From the NCBI GenBank assembly GCA_028554795.2, contig CM068842.1, positions 50,737,574 to 50,801,573 of the forward strand: a DNA stretch of 64,000 bases, written 5' to 3'. Below the pieces are notes generated by a model. That model saw only the letters and a list, made by a program, of their open reading frames with translations, was not told the origin of the DNA and did not search any database. Source of the DNA: Sinohyriopsis cumingii. Its lineage: Eukaryota; Mollusca; Bivalvia; Unionida; Unionidae. Numbering within the stretch: the stretch's first letter is position 1; every line of letters begins with the position of its first letter. Shown piece by piece: positions 54,720 to 62,953 of the stretch. Both the position numbers and the translations under genes were made by a program.

Positions 54720-54935
54720 AGTAGTGAAGTAGGCCACCCTAGGGACAATGGGACAAAGCATTAAAAAAAAACCTGGGCCACTCTAGGGACAATGGAAATT
54801 TAACATGGAGAAAAATCGTGGGCCACTCTAGGGACAATGGGAATTTAACATAGAGTTTGGGCTTGTCTAGGGACAAGGGAAATTAACATGAGGAATATAG
54901 TTTGGGCTTGTCTAGGGACAAGGGGAATTAAATAT
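54720..54935. repeat. Tandem repeats at the presumed left end of the Polinton
   Basis: Five diverged units of about 38-46 bases, each holding TCTAGGGACAA(T/G)GG (CCTAGGGACAATGG in the first) followed by GAATTTAACAT-like sequence and GGGCCACT or GGGCTTGT. The left edge, near AAGTAGTGAAGTAGG, has the AG start seen in many Polintons. Whether this is part of a terminal inverted repeat is unproven. Confidence 0.6.
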
Positions 54936-54954: not shown

Positions 54955-55000
54955 AAAGTTTTTTAAATTTAAATTTAAATTTAAATTTAAATTTAAAAAA
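54955..55000. repeat. (AAATTT)n tract
   Basis: Self-complementary AAATTT repeat between the tandem units and the first accessory gene. Confidence 0.9.
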
Positions 55001-55020: not shown

Positions 55021-55059
55021 ATCTCTTTTCGAGAAATATGGCTGGCCCTGAAAAGGGCC
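55021..55059 (-). terminator. Histone-type 3' end signal of the 198-residue accessory gene
   Basis: Minus strand, 22 bases after the TAG stop. AAA precedes the 6-bp stem GGCCCT-TTTC-AGGGCC (55059-55044), an exact fit to the metazoan replication-dependent histone stem-loop. AGCCA follows. After 13 bases comes GAAAAGAGAT (55030-55021), like the purine-rich U7 downstream element. No AATAAA intervenes. Confidence 0.75.
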
Positions 55060-55080
55060 TTTCGCTTTCTTCTGCTTCTT

Positions 55081-55677
55081 CTATTTCCTCCATTTCCTCA
55101 TCCAGCCCCTAATCTTTCCCCAAATTCCTTTGTTCTTCCTCTTTTCTTTTTCAGGTAACCAGTCTGGGTGACCCATAGCCCTGAACTTCTCTTGTATCTT
55201 GATCCAATTTTGATTGACTTTGTCAAAGGCCTCTTTCTTCTTTATTGTTTCCTTATCCTGTTTTTCTTGACTCCATTTTTCTTTTATCTTTTTCACCTCT
55301 TCAGTCATCACTTGTTTCATTATTTCTTCTCCTTTTTTCAACCTGTTCAGTCCCCTCTTCATATATGACAACTCCGTCCAATACACTATATGTTCTAGGA
55401 AGCACCGGACTTGGATGACATAATCCAGTGCTTCCTTCAAACTCCCCACTCTGACATAAGGTGGGTCAATAAATCCTCTTGATTTGTTGACTTCATCTTC
55501 TATCATTCCTTCTATTATATGTCTGGCGGTTTTTATACGTTCGACTTGCCTGGTTACCAAGTATTCTTTATCTTCATACTCCCATTCCTTTTGTATCCTT
55601 TCTATAGCATATTCTGCATCTATTATCCAGAAATAGATATGCCTCAATTGATTAAATAAATCAGTCACTTGCGTCAT
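55081..55677 (-). CDS. Accessory helical protein 1 (198 residues), Polinton gene
   Basis: Not recognised as a known family. From the ATG at 55677 it encodes 198 residues, highly charged and mostly helical. Two successive segments (about residues 5-62 and 75-135) share a pattern also seen in the gene at 56965: a Leu/Val/Arg-rich helix, then (E/R)xIIExMxxEE-like, then K/E-rich sequence ending in Trp. It ends in a cationic, Trp-rich amphipathic tail (GKIRGWMRKWRK). The open frame reaches up to 55833, but that first ATG lies in an upstream copy of the promoter element. The 55677 ATG is 58 bases from the TATA-like box, as in the two sister genes, and is preferred. Intronless, with its own promoter and a histone-type 3' end. 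The function is unknown; a role in chromatin or virion assembly would be a guess. Confidence 0.75.
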   Translation of the reverse strand: MTQVTDLFNQLRHIYFWIIDAEYAIERIQKEWEYEDKEYLVTRQVERIKTARHIIEGMIEDEVNKSRGFIDPPYVRVGSLKEALDYVIQVRCFLEHIVYWTELSYMKRGLNRLKKGEEIMKQVMTEEVKKIKEKWSQEKQDKETIKKKEAFDKVNQNWIKIQEKFRAMGHPDWLPEKEKRKNKGIWGKIRGWMRKWRK

Positions 55678-55729
55678 CTTGTTTAGATTATTCTTTGTAG
55701 AATGGTTTGAACGACGAATACTGTGGGTT

Positions 55730-55767
55730 CTTATACGAAAAGCGCGGACGTGATGGAAAACATCCCT
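55730..55767 (-). promoter_or_regulatory. Promoter of accessory gene 1: conserved element plus TATA-like box
   Basis: Minus strand: the element (55767-55742) contains GATGTTTTCCATCACGTCC and GCGC, then 6 bases, then TATAAG (55735-55730). The ATG is 58 bases from the box. The same layout precedes the other two accessory genes. Confidence 0.7.
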
Positions 55768-55781
55768 CAATACATAAAAAT

Positions 55782-55838
55782 TGATCTTACCTAGATCATG
55801 ACCAAAACAACGCGCGGACGTGAAGGAAAACATCCCCC
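55782..55838 (-). promoter_or_regulatory. Second upstream copy of the element plus a dyad site
   Basis: A further copy of the GATGTTTTCCTTCACGTCC element lies at 55838-55812, without a TATA box. Between the copies is the dyad TGATCT-TACCT-AGATCA (55782-55798), conserved at the same place upstream of accessory gene 2. On the minus strand the dyad also reads AGGTAAGAT, a possible splice donor. Confidence 0.55.
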
Positions 55839-56045
55839 ACTTTTCTCATTTCATATAATAAAACCCAAACTATACTCTCCACATACGCTAAGAAACAATA
55901 AAAAAACCCATAATCTACTATTCACACAAACTTACGCAAGTGCTTACAAACACAAACACACAAACACATACACTCACACTATAAAAAAAGAGTTAGTGTT
56001 TATATTCACACTACTCTACCTACACACATTGGCAAATTGATGGTT

Positions 56046-56084
56046 ATTTCTTTTCTAGAGTATTGGGTAGCCCTGAAAAGGGCT
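56046..56084 (-). terminator. Histone-type 3' end signal of accessory gene 2
   Basis: Minus strand, 30 bases after the TAA stop. Stem-loop AGCCCT-TTTC-AGGGCT (56084-56069), then ACCCA (the usual histone flank), and 13 bases after the stem GAAAAGAAAT (56055-56046). Relative to gene 1 the first stem pair is A-U instead of G-C, a compensatory change. Confidence 0.75.
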
Positions 56085-56114
56085 GTTTTTTTTTTGAACT
56101 TCATGGACACCTGG

Positions 56115-56468
56115 TTAATGGTGGCACCTTCCAGGCCTGGCGCCACATACACATCTTGTCCCCCAGTTACTTTTTACCTTTTGGGGGGAGAGAGCAGAGG
56201 CAGGATATGTGGCTTCAGAATCCCAATTTTCGCTCTCTGGGATTCTGAAATTTCTTGTTCTTCTCTCCTTTTCCTCTTCCTCTTCTTTGTTTCTTCTCTT
56301 CTCCTCCTCTTCTTTGTATTTTCTCTCCTCCTCTTCTTTATTTCTTCTTTCCTCCTCCTCTCTCATCCTTCCGTCTTCCACAATGGCTTCCGCGGCCAGT
56401 TCATTCAACAGGCGCCTGGCATATTCCAGATGCACATGAAGTTCCAGTTTCGCCAGTCTCGTGTTCAT
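56115..56468 (-). CDS. Accessory helical protein 2 (117 residues), Polinton gene
   Basis: Not recognised. It opens MNTRLAKLELHVHLEYARRL, similar in start and pattern to the gene at 56965 (MCSKLAKL...). It continues with about 40 residues of almost pure Glu/Lys/Arg, likely a single charged helix or coiled coil. A polar tail with two Cys follows (RCVCGARPGRCHH). The ATG at 56468 is 58 bases from the TATAAA box. It is intronless, flanked by its own promoter and a histone-type stem-loop. The charged part is low complexity at DNA level, so its length may vary between copies. Confidence 0.7.
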   Translation of the reverse strand: MNTRLAKLELHVHLEYARRLLNELAAEAIVEDGRMREEEERRNKEEEERKYKEEEEKRRNKEEEEEKERRTRNFRIPESENWDSEATYPASALSPQKVKSNWGTRCVCGARPGRCHH

Positions 56469-56520
56469 TTTTGGTGTTGATCAATCAACAAGGGTAGCTA
56501 GACTGCCCAGCGAGTTTCAA

Positions 56521-56559
56521 TTTATAGTGAAAGCGCGGACGTGAAGGAAAACATCCCCC
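56521..56559 (-). promoter_or_regulatory. Promoter of accessory gene 2
   Basis: Minus strand: element at 56559-56533 (GATGTTTTCCTTCACGTCC, then GCGC), 6 bases, then a consensus TATAAA (56526-56521). CAGTCTA, an initiator-like motif shared with accessory gene 3, begins 21 bases past the first T of the box. Confidence 0.75.
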
Positions 56560-56573
56560 TAAAAACATAAAAT

Positions 56574-56630
56574 TGATCTTACCTAGATCATGACCAAAAG
56601 AAACAACGCGCGGACCTAAAAGAAACACTC
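56574..56630 (-). promoter_or_regulatory. Degenerate second element copy and dyad, accessory gene 2
   Basis: The dyad TGATCT-N5-AGATCA at 56574-56590 is identical to that upstream of gene 1. A decayed element copy follows at about 56608-56630 (GCGCGGACCTAAAAG on the + strand). Confidence 0.5.
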
Positions 56631-56897
56631 ACTCACTTTTTATGCTACCCATCACTATTTTAAAATTTTTTCATAAATCACTTCAATAGACTATCCACAT
56701 ACCCAAAGCAATCCAATCTAACCCCAAATCTAAACCTCAAACACCAAAAAAGACATCATTTTAATCTACTATCCATACCAACATACTTTAGCACTTACAA
56801 ACACAAACACACAAACACATACCCTCACATTTTTAAAAAAAGAGTTAGTGTTTATATTCACACTACTCTACCTACACACATTGGCAAATTAATCGTT

Positions 56898-56936
56898 ATT
56901 TCTTTTCTAGAGTATTGGGTAGCCCTGAAAAGGGCT
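56898..56936 (-). terminator. Histone-type 3' end signal of accessory gene 3
   Basis: Minus strand, 28 bases after the TAA stop. Stem-loop AGCCCT-TTTC-AGGGCT (56936-56921), flank ACCCA, then exactly 13 bases after the stem GAAAAGAAAT (56907-56898). Confidence 0.75.
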
Positions 56937-56964
56937 GTTTCTTTGTTTGCCTTGGCAATCTTTT

Positions 56965-57324
56965 TTAGTTTCTAAGAATGCGATGTCCTCTGAGGATAGA
57001 CTTTCTGGCGATAGGTCTGCTTCTTCGGAAAGAGAAGTAGAACTCTTTGGTGTCGATACGGCAATCTACAAAGCCTCTGTCAGGTTCAGGTTGCTGCTGC
57101 TGTTGCTGTTGTTGCTGCTGTTGTTGCTGTCTCTGAAGTCTGTACTTCTCTGTCCATTCTTCTTTCTCCCTGTTCATTTCTTCTCTGAAGAGCTCTTCTA
57201 TCAGGTCTTCAGTGACTTTTAGCATTCTCACATTCTCTATTTCTTCTGGCTTCGGTATCAGACTGTGTCTGACCCTATGCAAATTCACGTAGGCTTCGTT
57301 GAGCTTAGCTAGTTTGGAGCACAT
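56965..57324 (-). CDS. Accessory helical protein 3 with polyglutamine (119 residues), Polinton gene
   Basis: Not recognised. From the ATG at 57324 it encodes 119 residues. A helical segment (residues 2-58) carries KVTEDLIEELFREEMNREKE and resembles both halves of accessory protein 1. Then come 13 glutamines encoded by mixed CAG/CAA codons, then a basic tail. The open frame extends up to 57444, but that start is not ATG and would cross the promoter. The 57324 ATG is 60 bases from the TATA-like box, like its sisters. Intronless, with its own promoter and a histone-type 3' end. Confidence 0.72.
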   Translation of the reverse strand: MCSKLAKLNEAYVNLHRVRHSLIPKPEEIENVRMLKVTEDLIEELFREEMNREKEEWTEKYRLQRQQQQQQQQQQQQQPEPDRGFVDCRIDTKEFYFSFRRSRPIARKSILRGHRILRN

Positions 57325-57378: not shown

Positions 57379-57417
57379 CTTAAAGCCAAAGCGCGGACGT
57401 GAAGGAAAACATCCCCC
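57379..57417 (-). promoter_or_regulatory. Promoter of accessory gene 3
   Basis: Minus strand: element at 57417-57391 (GATGTTTTCCTTCACGTCC, then GCGC), 6 bases, then TTTAAG (57384-57379) in the TATA position. CAGTCTA lies at the same distance as in gene 2. Confidence 0.7.
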
Positions 57418-57640
57418 ACACGGTTTTCGAGCCGCAACGTTCAATGAGTGTCATGAGAGGGATAGTAAGAAATGAAAGAGCATCAATCCAACATTCTTAT
57501 AGTTAAACAAACCACAAAGGCATTTTTTTCAAAACACAACATTTTTTATTCAAAAATCACTTAACACTAAACAATAACTCTAACATTTTTAACAATAATC
57601 CAACACTATAACATCAAACAATTTTTTCTCCATTGACAAT
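57418..57640 (-). terminator. Polyadenylation region after the protease gene
   Basis: AT-rich spacer. On the minus strand AATAAA occurs at 57550-57545, about 90 bases past the protease stop, so the capsid/protease block probably ends in ordinary polyadenylation. No histone-type stem-loop is present here. Confidence 0.55.
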
Positions 57641-58201
57641 CTACTTTAAACAGGGCTGACAACGTTGTGAATGAAATTGTGATTTCCACTGTTGGAAATC
57701 ATTAGGCCATTGATGGACACTACGTTTCCTAGCTTGAGACAAAAGATAAGCATAATGGTCACAAAACCATCGATCTACTTTCGCATCGTTTCTAGAAGAA
57801 GAACGAGGATCAAAATGAGTCACTAAATGTTCTAAGGAATAGCCCAGGCTGCGATGATGCAGAAAATACACACAGTACTGTCCACACACCAAGGAATCTG
57901 TGCCTTGTAATGTCACATTATTGAATCGGGTGGTCTGAGCATTTCTTCTCATAAAGTCGATGATATCGTCTTCCAAAGGTGGCAATCCGTACGAATCGAA
58001 ATATTCCACACATCCTTCTTGAGGAAAGTAGACGGCTACCCAGTGGGTTCCTGGGAGATGACTGTCGTCCGTGTTGATCACGTAAGCTTGATGGTCTTTA
58101 GGTTTGCGATGAGGGAGTTCATCTTTAGCACAGACGACAGGATTCCAAGAAGCCGTATACGAACTGTGGTTCAAAAGGTAATAAAGTTCCCAGGTATCCA
58201 T
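57641..58201 (-). CDS. Adenain-like cysteine protease (Polinton PRO), maturation protease
   Basis: C48/Ulp1-like fold protease, homologous to adenovirus adenain, which processes virion proteins. From the ATG at 58201 it is 186 residues; an earlier TTG in the same frame is not needed. Catalytic residues are visible: His53 in GTHWVAVYF, Asp69 in EYFDSYG, the oxyanion Gln99 in LQG, and Cys106 in LVCGQYC. Spacing matches adenain. The gene follows the Cys/His protein, whose stop lies just downstream of this ATG's upstream region, and it is the last gene of the structural block. It looks intact. Confidence 0.93.
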   Translation of the reverse strand: MDTWELYYLLNHSSYTASWNPVVCAKDELPHRKPKDHQAYVINTDDSHLPGTHWVAVYFPQEGCVEYFDSYGLPPLEDDIIDFMRRNAQTTRFNNVTLQGTDSLVCGQYCVYFLHHRSLGYSLEHLVTHFDPRSSSRNDAKVDRWFCDHYAYLLSQARKRSVHQWPNDFQQWKSQFHSQRCQPCLK

Positions 58202-58736: not shown

Positions 58737-60047
58737 CTAGTAATCTAGAATGACTTCTCTCAAACTGTTGATTTCTATGGTATTATCGAATTCTGCATAC
58801 AGGATGACGTTCACCGTTACATCAGGGTCTCGGTTTGCAAACTGAATTTCCACACGAATCTGACCGGATTTTATAGGGTGGAAATGTCCCTCGTCGCTGC
58901 CTTGGTCAGGAGTGAAATCGAAAGCCCACAAAACATAGACTCCTACATAATCGTCGTACGTAATACCGTGACTGGTGTTGGTTCCTAACTGTCCCGTGGC
59001 TTCGTACAGGGACAAGTACGATCTCAAGTAATTCTTCTTGGTAAAGTCAGGTTCGAAAGGTCGGGTACACAAGGTCTTGCCATCGCGACTGACTTCGATC
59101 TTGGACACGCCAAAGTGTTGAAAGTAGAAAGGATTTTTACCCAAAGCTCCGTTGAAGGCTTCATTCTCGACGATACCAACGATCAAACGTTTGGGTAACT
59201 GTCCTTGGAACAAATGATCTTCGATCATGGATCGCTGTCCCTTGGGAATGGTGAAGGTTTTCACTTCCACGCGTCGTATGGGATACTTAGCGGTCGTTCT
59301 GCTCAATGTTTGACTGATGTCGTTACCCACTTTAGGTAACACTTCCACGCGTCGTACGTAGAGCCTGGCTTCCTCGATGACAGTTTTGCAAGCAGTAGTA
59401 CCTATCAAATGGAAAGTGGCACTGCTACGATTCAGTCTCAGGCGAACATTCACCCCGTTTAGCAAATATTTCTCTTGTAACCACATGTCCAAATGCAAAC
59501 GATCCATCAGTTCTAAACTCTGTTCATCTTTGATTCTGTTTCTTCGTTCTACAAATCCGTCATTGTTTTCTTTCTTTTCATCAGTTTCGAAATTTTTAAA
59601 CTTTTCAGCTTCGTCAACTTCCCATAGTACAGAGGCATTGAGATGAGTGTTCTTGGCGTCTATTTCGTACGTCAAGAGATTTTCCAGGTACGCTCGATAA
59701 GGGTAAGTATCCATGCTGCTGCTGACCAGTTTGTTGTTCAAGTACAAGTCCACTCCGCTAAACAAGGAATGCATGAAATTGTTGACGGGAGCTATTACCT
59801 CATCGCCATCTAGGGTCGAATTGTCCTCATCGACAACTTTGACTTTCAAGTACAAGTAACTGCTATTCAGATCGATGTAATCTTCGGGCTGTCCTTTGAT
59901 TTCAAACTCGATGGGAGCTGAGGCTGTCAATGAGGAGACGGGGTGAAATTCCACCCATTGGGATTCTTGCATGGTCATCATGGTGGGGGGCATGGCAAAC
60001 AGATCCAGTTCCGTCTTGGAACAAGCGCAAGATTCTCGGTGCATCAT
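58737..60047 (-). CDS. Major capsid protein, double-jelly-roll type (Polinton MCP; F54H12.2-like)
   Basis: Predicted hexon-like capsid subunit of 436 residues. It belongs to the family often annotated in animal genomes as F54H12.2-like. It begins with a Cys-containing stretch and ELDLFAMPPT, then WVEFHPVSSL. The N-terminal half has PVNNFMHSLFSGVDLYLNNK; the C-terminal half has GQLPKRLIVGIVENEAFNG, KNPFYFQHFGVSKIEV and VLYAEFDNTIEIN. The pair of similar beta-rich halves fits a double jelly roll. The track of the frame starts at a TTG (60065), but the ATG at 60047 is preferred. No internal stop is seen. Confidence 0.9.
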   Translation of the reverse strand: MMHRESCACSKTELDLFAMPPTMMTMQESQWVEFHPVSSLTASAPIEFEIKGQPEDYIDLNSSYLYLKVKVVDEDNSTLDGDEVIAPVNNFMHSLFSGVDLYLNNKLVSSSMDTYPYRAYLENLLTYEIDAKNTHLNASVLWEVDEAEKFKNFETDEKKENNDGFVERRNRIKDEQSLELMDRLHLDMWLQEKYLLNGVNVRLRLNRSSATFHLIGTTACKTVIEEARLYVRRVEVLPKVGNDISQTLSRTTAKYPIRRVEVKTFTIPKGQRSMIEDHLFQGQLPKRLIVGIVENEAFNGALGKNPFYFQHFGVSKIEVSRDGKTLCTRPFEPDFTKKNYLRSYLSLYEATGQLGTNTSHGITYDDYVGVYVLWAFDFTPDQGSDEGHFHPIKSGQIRVEIQFANRDPDVTVNVILYAEFDNTIEINSLREVILDY

Positions 60048-61843: not shown

Positions 61844-62953
61844 TCACTTCTTTTTATAGTCGATGACTTGCGAAGCGTCGATCCAAGAATCGAAACTGGG
61901 TGGATATCCTTTCCAACGTACTTTGACTTCTTTGACACGTCGTTTGCCCACTTTACGGGTGCTGCGTTCGAGAATGCTTTCGATGTCGTACACGTCGTCT
62001 TCTTTTTTGGTGACACGTTGTAACTCGGGCAAATAAAACGTTCCTTTGAGCACTTCTCCGTTCATGTCTTCCAATTTATAGACGGCAGGATGACGGCCAT
62101 GCACTCGTCCAGTGACGCGAAACAATTCGGTCGTCCAGTTAGGTAAGTAACCTTTGTCGAAAGTGCGTTTGGTTTTGCCAATGCGCACCCAATCTCCTAC
62201 GGCCAACTCTCCACTTTTCTTGGGGACAGCCCTCGTCGGGGACGTACCGAACAGACGCTTAAACACCAACACTTCGTTGTCGGGAGTCACGTCTTGCGGG
62301 GCACGTCCGATGCTTCGATGGTAAGATTGGTTGTACGCTTGCACCAGGTGCGGCAAGATGTCGATGTACTTCAGAGTGTGATGATGCGTAAAATATTTCC
62401 ACATGCGTTCTTTCAAAGTGCGTTGAAAACGTTCCACGATGCTGGCTTTGGTTTCGGGATTCTCGGTGGTAAAAAAATGAATGTCACGTTTCTTTAATTC
62501 TTTTTGGAAAGTTTGGTTCAGAAATTCGGTGCCTTTGTCCGTTTGCCATCGAAGAGGGTGACGACCGCTTTGTTTCAACACCCGTTGCAGGGCTCGCACT
62601 AACTCGCTGCTCGATTTGGAAGTCAAGGGCACGACCCAGGCAAATTTGGAAAAGACGTCGATGACACAAAACAAATATTTGTAGCCACGATTGTAGCTGG
62701 CCAAATGAGAGACATCGGCTAAATCGGCTTGCCATTGATGATCGATGCCTTCCACTCGGGTGCGCCTTCTGGCAAACTTGCGTCGAATGGGTTTGTGTAA
62801 AGTGTAGGTAGGTTGTTCTTGTAACCATCGTTGCACTTGAGGTAAACGGAGACTTTTCAGTCGAGTTTTAGCAGCACGATACAATTTTTGAACTCCTGCG
62901 TAACCTGCAGGATGGGAGGGATCGTAGTAAATGCTGGCTAAGACTTTTTCCAT
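61844..62953 (-). CDS. Polinton integrase, rve family with chromodomain
   Basis: Inserts the linear element into host DNA. It is 369 residues. A short N-terminal helical region (residues 1-50) precedes the RNase-H-like rve core with Asp77 (WQADLADVSHLA), Asp139 (WQTDKGTEFLN) and Glu174 (ASIVERFQRTLKERM). The acidic triad has 34 residues between the last two. A C-terminal beta barrel (GDWVRIGK) is followed by a chromodomain at about 321-365 (YDIESILERS, VRWKGYPPSFDSWI), which in other elements guides insertion to marked chromatin. The gene is intact, begins with ATG and follows the Pro-rich gene by 10 bases. Confidence 0.96.
   Translation of the reverse strand: MEKVLASIYYDPSHPAGYAGVQKLYRAAKTRLKSLRLPQVQRWLQEQPTYTLHKPIRRKFARRRTRVEGIDHQWQADLADVSHLASYNRGYKYLFCVIDVFSKFAWVVPLTSKSSSELVRALQRVLKQSGRHPLRWQTDKGTEFLNQTFQKELKKRDIHFFTTENPETKASIVERFQRTLKERMWKYFTHHHTLKYIDILPHLVQAYNQSYHRSIGRAPQDVTPDNEVLVFKRLFGTSPTRAVPKKSGELAVGDWVRIGKTKRTFDKGYLPNWTTELFRVTGRVHGRHPAVYKLEDMNGEVLKGTFYLPELQRVTKKEDDVYDIESILERSTRKVGKRRVKEVKVRWKGYPPSFDSWIDASQVIDYKKK

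Follow-up and report, generated by a model that had tools for sequence, protein, structure and literature searches.

Why should genes of a mobile element that code for proteins other than histones end in the signal that forms the 3' ends of histone mRNAs? The question is raised by a 64,000-nt stretch of the genome of the unionid bivalve Sinohyriopsis cumingii (assembly GCA_028554795.2, contig CM068842.1, positions 50,737,574 to 50,801,573; the whole stretch is referred to here as the window), the minus strand of which carries a Polinton-like (Maverick) element. The region in question, 55021..56936, lies close to one end of this element and holds the 3' ends of accessory genes, here called acc1, acc2 and acc3. 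A first-pass annotation had proposed that these genes borrow the host histone signal and that S-phase transcripts without poly(A) could result. The sequence tests described below support this proposal and make it probable that the accessory genes imitate histone genes of the host, to be expressed and processed by the S-phase histone machinery of the host. To our knowledge, histone-type 3' ends are regarded as a private mark of replication-dependent histone genes, and no natural set of other genes controlled in the manner of histone mRNAs is known to us. A 2009 paper states that SLBP had never been implicated in the direct regulation of any non-histone gene (PMC2781718).

Histone-type 3' ends on three accessory genes

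Beyond the protease gene of the element stand, in this order, acc3, acc2 and acc1, all on the minus strand. acc1 (55081..55677) is a single open frame for a charged protein of 198 aa, coiled-coil-like as judged by eye; acc2 (56115..56468) codes for 117 aa rich in Glu, Lys and Arg, and acc3 (56965..57324) for 119 aa with a Gln run. Five unnamed homologues of acc1 were found, at 48-51% identity; its 250-aa frame has no Pfam match at E 0.05, nor has acc3, and the Pfam matches of acc2 are weak, all below cut-off.

Each gene is followed, shortly 3' of its stop codon and in sense, by a 6-bp stem with a 4-nt UUUN loop: GGCCCT-TTTC-AGGGCC behind acc1 (55044..55059, minus strand; Rfam Histone3, 32.8 bits), and AGCCCT-TTTC-AGGGCT behind both acc2 (56069..56084, minus strand; 31.0 bits) and acc3 (56921..56936, minus strand; 29.0 bits). 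The distance from stop codon to stem is 21 nt in acc1, 30 nt in acc2 and 28 nt in acc3, and the stem is flanked once by AGCCA and twice by ACCCA. A histone downstream element lies 13 nt beyond each stem; it is GAAAAGAGAT in acc1 (55021..55030, minus strand) and GAAAAGAAAT in acc2 (56046..56055, minus strand) and acc3 (56898..56907, minus strand). The first-pass annotation had described these stems, TTTC loops, flanks and 13-nt spacers correctly, except that the distance from stop codon to stem is 21-30 nt and not 22-30.

The match to Histone3 (RF00032) extends over all 46 model positions at 3/3 sites, with E-values from 8e-7 to 2.2e-5 in 4 kb and from 1.3e-5 to 3.4e-4 in the whole window; the scores of 29.0-32.8 bits are under the gathering cut-off of 34. 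A strict regular expression for the fully paired stem finds 3 instances in the window, of which 3/3 have GAAAAG at 10-15 nt; simulated first-order Markov windows (400) average 0.05 such stems, and 0.0 that are accompanied by the downstream element. A chance origin of the stem-loops is rejected by this simulation and by the reversed-pattern control given below.

All three cases are real; they are not three separate ones. The stems of acc2 and acc3 both lie in a 114-nt block (55982-56095 and 56834-56947) that is 96% identical between its two copies; these sites are thus not independent, and the 'three cases' are nearer two. The first stem pair is G-C in acc1 and A-T in acc2 and acc3, a single compensatory difference, which is no strong covariation and lends the earlier argument for selection less support than was claimed.

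The same signals in the histone genes of the host

In this genome H3 occurs in tandem arrays with a unit of ~8.3 kb (148 matches including fragments, from 150 scored of 232 first-look candidates). One tandem unit served for the comparison that the first-pass annotation had called for. In it H3, H4, H2B, H2A and H1 are all on one strand, and all five end in the stem-loop, at 35.0-39.4 bits and over the Rfam cut-off. The stem is GGCCCT-TTTN-AGGGCC in H3, H4, H2B and H2A, which is exactly the stem of acc1, and GGTCCT-TTTC-AGGACC in H1; the loops TTTC and TTTA are common to host and element, and TTTT occurs in H3 and H4. The spacing to GAAAAG is 13 nt in H3, H4 and H2B and 14 nt in H2A and H1, so that the purine-rich downstream element of acc1-3 stands at host spacing; its form is TAGAAAAGA in H3, H4, H2B and H1 and likewise in acc2 and acc3. 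Given these matches of stem, loop and GAAAAG, the element carries the host's own version of the signal. Histone mRNAs of another bivalve, Lucina, are also reported to bear stem-loops (PMC6210712).

The promoter half of a histone gene

The likeness extends to the upstream side. A 25-nt repeat located upstream of acc1, acc2 and acc3 recurs upstream of host histone genes, with CACGTCCGCGC as the motif common to histone and element promoters. In acc1 (55741..55767, minus strand) it reads GATGTTTTCCATCACGTCCGCGCT, which is 24/24 identical to the region upstream of host H2B and, with three more bases, 26/27 identical to that upstream of host H1, and it is followed by the TATA-like GTATAAG. A second copy lies further upstream (55812..55836, minus strand), as does an in-frame ATG at 55833, the frame from which would cross the promoter motifs. 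In acc2 the motif reads GGGATGTTTTCCTTCACGTCCGCGCT and is followed by the TATA-like CTATAAAT (56532..56557, minus strand); a second promoter motif (56605..56635, minus strand) contains TTTCTTTTAGGTCCGCGCGTT, which is 21/21 identical to the upstream region of host H4, the whole match being 27/31. The same 25-mer precedes acc3 (57390..57415, minus strand). Motif and start codon are ~59-83 nt apart in H4, H2B and acc1, with the TATA-like box between them; all these boxes were recognised by eye. Within the element, a histone-promoter motif near the start codon was found in acc1-3 only.

The 9.1 kb of the element and the histone unit have 11 18-mers in common, compared with a mean of 0.003 in 300 simulated pairs. 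The two promoter motifs by themselves account for these 11, so that the element possesses the upstream as well as the downstream half of a histone gene. The promoter motif contains GTCCGC, which we take to be the core of a HiNF-P site. HiNF-P is reported to bring NPAT and polymerase to H4 promoters (PMC5706932).

Core genes and their polyadenylation signal

The core genes of the element include an integrase (61844..62953, minus strand; 369 aa), which matches the rve domain (PF00665, E 4e-14) and has a chromodomain (PF00385, E 5e-7). It is accompanied by a protein of 436 aa (58737..60047, minus strand; 867 homologues at E 0.001) which we take to be the capsid protein, its relatives being annotated as F54H12.2-like and the nearest named ones coming from Mercenaria and oysters, and by a putative adenovirus-type protease of 186 aa (57641..58201, minus strand), the match of which to PF00770 (E 0.0057, 16.8 bits) is below the cut-off of 21.3. 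A terminal inverted repeat of ~342 nt, 96.5% identical, bounds the window's own element at both ends, and its inner edge coincides at either end with the outermost stem-loop. Near the element terminus there are also five imperfect repeats with a 25-45 nt unit containing CTAGGGACAA (54729-54932), adjoined by a TTTAAA repeat tract (54959-55000).

The core cluster in the window lacks the histone-type signal. It ends instead, 90 nt past the protease stop, in AATAAA followed by GT-rich sequence (57545..57550, minus strand). This AATAAA at 57550, after which comes TGTTGTGTTTTG, is the only one outside coding sequence on the coding strand in the window's part of the element; none is found in the window past acc1-3. 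Copies L032, L034 and L036 have a core-cluster AATAAA as well, 110-117 nt past the end of the protease match (which is partial in L036). The core cluster thus appears to use ordinary polyadenylation.

Five genes per element, repeated across the genome

The set of genes with this signal is larger than the three of the first-pass annotation. Two further ones form a divergent pair of ~1.1 kb, R1 (77 aa) and R2 (183-190 aa where whole), at the other end of the element; each ends in the same stem-loop, with GAAAAG in most copies read, which brings the number per element to five. In the window's own element the R2 stem (L031:9422-9437) has GAAAAG 13 nt beyond it and lies ~16.5 kb from the acc3 stem, and the R1 stem (L078:516) has it 12 nt beyond and lies ~17.6 kb from the acc3 stem. 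The 77-aa frame of R1 is open there; the R2 copy is probably broken, since no more than 62 aa of open frame could be detected ahead of its stem. Where R2 was read elsewhere (L039:519-1091, L042:9427-9978), it has a conserved layout of an acidic NWDFVDFL-type N-terminus, a Gln/Glu-rich stretch and a basic PKRKRPSRAK-like stretch, and 19 unnamed homologues; at a guess, the acidic N-terminus and basic stretch might be those of a regulator acting in the nucleus. The two genes of the pair have a short divergent promoter region in common (L041:640-870); it contains CACGTGACGTCA and two copies of CGGATTGG (CCAAT when read on the opposite strand) and does not resemble the promoters of acc1-3.

Across the genome the pattern GCCCTTTTCAGGGC followed after 12-16 nt by GAAAAGA has 26,337 + 26,856 = 53,193 exact matches, a count that includes the host H2B units, which fit it; the reversed pattern has 0. 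Among the first 100 matches listed, there are 18 pairs of neighbours in divergent orientation, 1.0-1.25 kb apart, and 9 full five-site sets occur, all with one fixed order and orientation: acc1, acc2, acc3, a gap of 13-18 kb, and R2 and R1 back to back. A search with RF00032 gave 75/75 scored sites over the cut-off (75 of 589,472 first-look candidates were scored). Around the best 30 of these, relatives of acc1 or acc2 were found at 13/30 and a histone within the surrounding 3 kb at 0/30, by which the idea that the best sites are host histone genes is rejected. At 21/30 a frame of at least 60 aa stops 15-27 nt before the stem, and at 1/30 it stops 7 nt before. In a set of 60 stems chosen by or near stem-loop score, 48/60 have GAAAAG, 47 at 13 nt and 1 at 14 nt.

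The copies themselves appear to be recent. A search for the capsid gene, in which 96 of 29,041 first-look candidates were scored, gave 95-100% identity to the window capsid for 96/96, and 91/96 are free of in-frame stops; the element has probably undergone a very large and young expansion.

Conservation of the signal among element copies

Copies picked by stem-loop score cannot reveal selection; ten copies were therefore picked by hand by their capsid gene, from the 96 scored. In these the stem-loops of acc2 and acc3 are whole in 18/20 cases, the failures being acc3 of L061, where the last stem pair is mismatched, and acc2 of L059, where the loop is one base short. GAAAAGA is kept in 19/20 (the exception is acc3 of L063). 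With the 53,193 genome matches, this bears out the expectation that further copies of the element would retain the stem-loop behind the corresponding genes.

In the alignment of acc2 (ten sequences, the window included and L059 left out), mean pairwise identity is highest for the block of spacer and GAAAAG (1.00) and for the stem-loop (0.98). It is 0.90 for the GT-rich stretch further on, 0.73 for the sequence leading up to the stem, and 0.69 and 0.85 for two portions of the coding sequence. Between gene classes the spacer varies and the stem is constant. These observations provide moderate evidence for selection acting on the stem-loop signal.

Evidence against and alternative explanations

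A number of observations weigh against an active histone-type signal. In the alignment of acc3 (eleven sequences) the contrast is small, 0.93-0.97 in coding sequence vs 0.99 in the stem-loop, and the GT-rich stretch, 58-110 nt past the stem start, is also conserved (0.90-0.92); the histone signal is therefore not the sole sequence that is kept. Both outer sites are part of the terminal inverted repeat, where homogenisation could keep them alike. At the best 30 Rfam loci there are 5 frames at other distances from the stem (-41 to 196 nt, probably broken) and 3 stems without a frame, and 12/60 stems chosen by or near stem-loop score lack an exact GAAAAG, most having CAAAAAG instead and two having nothing recognisable. 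The 25-mer promoter motif is absent at R1 and R2 in copies L039, L041 and L042.

To these is added that no gene for the U7 small nuclear RNA (snRNA) was found in the genome by Rfam and two sequence patterns. The Rfam search (65 scored of 801,960 candidates) gave one match of 29.3 bits, below cut-off (L057). The first pattern had 356 matches, and of the 9 read in context several are pieces of the element integrase by sequence; the second was not enriched, with 90 matches vs 138 for its reversed control, and the 17 read in context (5 of them from before) include a local repeat of four copies without a hairpin. None of the 21 candidates read in context has, by eye, the single long 3' hairpin. A search for the SLBP domain had no match, and as its control was likewise matchless it is uninformative. 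Finally, the stem-loop is absent from six distant Polinton contigs (L051-L056; 27-43% capsid identity), in which acc1-3, used as probes without R1 and R2, are undetectable too; just L051, L053 and L054 reach past a recognised protease, by 0.8-5.2 kb. These contigs came from a capsid profile search of bacterial and archaeal genomes and are recorded as bacterial metagenome-assembled genomes (symbionts of Escarpia, Bathymodiolus and others), although they probably represent eukaryotic contamination of these reference genomes. One of them has a Twister-P1 ribozyme-like match past the capsid gene (L052:11734-11798; 28.9 bits, cut-off 67.2, E 0.04), probably by chance.

One alternative explanation is that the transcripts are polyadenylated at a signal past the stem-loop, which would then be at most a stability element. 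AATAAA occurs 63-72 nt past the acc3 stem in 6/10 capsid-chosen copies and past the acc2 stem in 1/10, the window has ATTAAA past its acc3 stem, at 56765, and a conserved GT-rich stretch comes after the inner stems; together these make poly(A) use possible. Against this, the window has no AATAAA past acc1-3, and such a signal occurs in a true histone gene of the same genome: in host H4, AATAAA stands 21 and 76 nt beyond the stem. Loss of Slbp in Drosophila is reported to result in polyadenylated histone mRNAs (PMC2781718). We consider this explanation unlikely; a poly(A) site for fallback use might be located in the 96% alike block that includes the acc2 and acc3 stems and the sequence past them. 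Somewhat similarly improbable is passive inheritance, by which an ancestral element would have taken up a host histone 3' end, with a piece of promoter, that has since been copied along and homogenised without being used. It fits with the likeness of the sites beyond the signal proper (the inner two in the 96% identical block, the outer two in the terminal repeat), with the loss of GAAAAG at some sites, and with capsid copies at 95-100% identity, which leave little time for a signal to be lost. It does not fit with acc2, where stem-loop and GAAAAG are better kept than the adjoining coding sequence in capsid-chosen copies, nor with the placement of the sites, in sense after the stops of five different genes and at 15-27 nt in 21/30 loci, nor with the presence of the promoter half as well, in the two motifs that make up the 11 common 18-mers.

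Two further explanations take the stem-loop for something other than the end of a working mRNA. The many stem-loop RNAs or sites might act as a decoy that sequesters SLBP and U7 and lowers histone production in the host, for which the excess of 53,193 exact sites over 148 H3 matches, fragments included, would speak; many copies, however, keep open frames before the sites, so that their transcripts look meant for translation, and we regard a decoy as very improbable. The hairpin might also be a feature of the DNA at the element ends, such as an origin, a packaging signal or a terminal-protein site, and no RNA signal at all, which would agree with the outermost hairpin forming, on either side of the element, the inner border of the terminal inverted repeat. 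Three further sites, however, are found deeper in the element, at 1-2 kb from one end and 1.1 kb from the other, the orientation of the sites follows the gene in the sets seen, and both GAAAAG at 13-14 nt and the likeness to host histone genes would be left without a reason; a DNA feature seems to us likewise very improbable.

Proposed mechanism and implications

The preferred explanation, that the accessory genes use the histone machinery of the host, would work as follows. Host histone transcription factors would activate acc1-3 in S phase; SLBP would bind the stem-loop of the transcript and the U7 ribonucleoprotein would pair with GAAAAGA; and a cut few bases past the stem would release a capped mRNA without poly(A), stable only during DNA replication and decaying at the end of S phase. 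The core cluster would be expressed conventionally, by way of its normal poly(A) signal. The element would thereby have two classes of genes, one of them locked to the phase in which its own DNA can be copied, and the benefit would be one of timing, in that the accessory proteins are made while host DNA synthesis is active. A wider view, which we hold to be an evenly balanced proposition, is that of a whole regulon of histone-gene mimics: promoter and 3' end, both of host origin, would together restrict the making of non-histone proteins to S phase, with mRNAs that lack poly(A) and perhaps arise at the histone locus body; copies of the signal, which far outnumber the histone genes, could compete for SLBP and U7.

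If the accessory genes use this signal, a selfish element times its genes to DNA replication by copying the S-phase signals of its host, and these would be, as far as we know, the first naturally occurring set of genes, other than those for histones, that is controlled like histone mRNAs. Their transcripts would be missed by poly(A)-selected RNA sequencing, by which Polinton activity may be hidden, and the host, which has tens of thousands of histone-type ends beyond its own, would have to deal with possible competition for its processing machinery.

Comparison with known systems

Histone-type 3' ends in Polintons are likely to be new; no report of them in a virus or transposon was recognised, by title or opening of the abstract, among the papers listed from the open-access literature, a coverage outside which most subscription papers fall. 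In IMG/VR no relatives of the capsid were found, and scans for the stem with its flank gave 0 and 3 stretches, none with a match to RF00032 even at E 10. Two of these are alike (GGTTCTTTTCAGGACCAC; L048:758-775 and L049:629-646), with GAAAAG following the stem at 8 nt; in the third no GAAAAG occurs close to the stem.

With Polintons/Mavericks of the adintovirus-like kind the element shares an integrase with chromodomain, a putative adenovirus-type protease, a capsid, terminal inverted repeats and a size of roughly 20 kb; it differs from them in the histone-type 3' ends of five accessory genes and the histone promoter motifs of three. In mimivirus and virophages, transcripts end at hairpins that follow no set sequence and receive poly(A). 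The likeness to these lies in a hairpin at transcript ends in viruses that are related to Polintons, or that infect together with their relatives, and the difference in the hairpin sequence, which here is the host histone signal. There is also the resemblance to the replication-dependent histone genes of metazoans themselves (RF00032; SLBP/U7), with which the accessory genes have in common the stem, the loop, the downstream purine element at a spacing of 13-14 nt, single open frames and, in acc1-3, the promoter motifs of host H2B, H1 and H4; they differ in that their proteins are not histones and in that the genes are owned by a mobile element.

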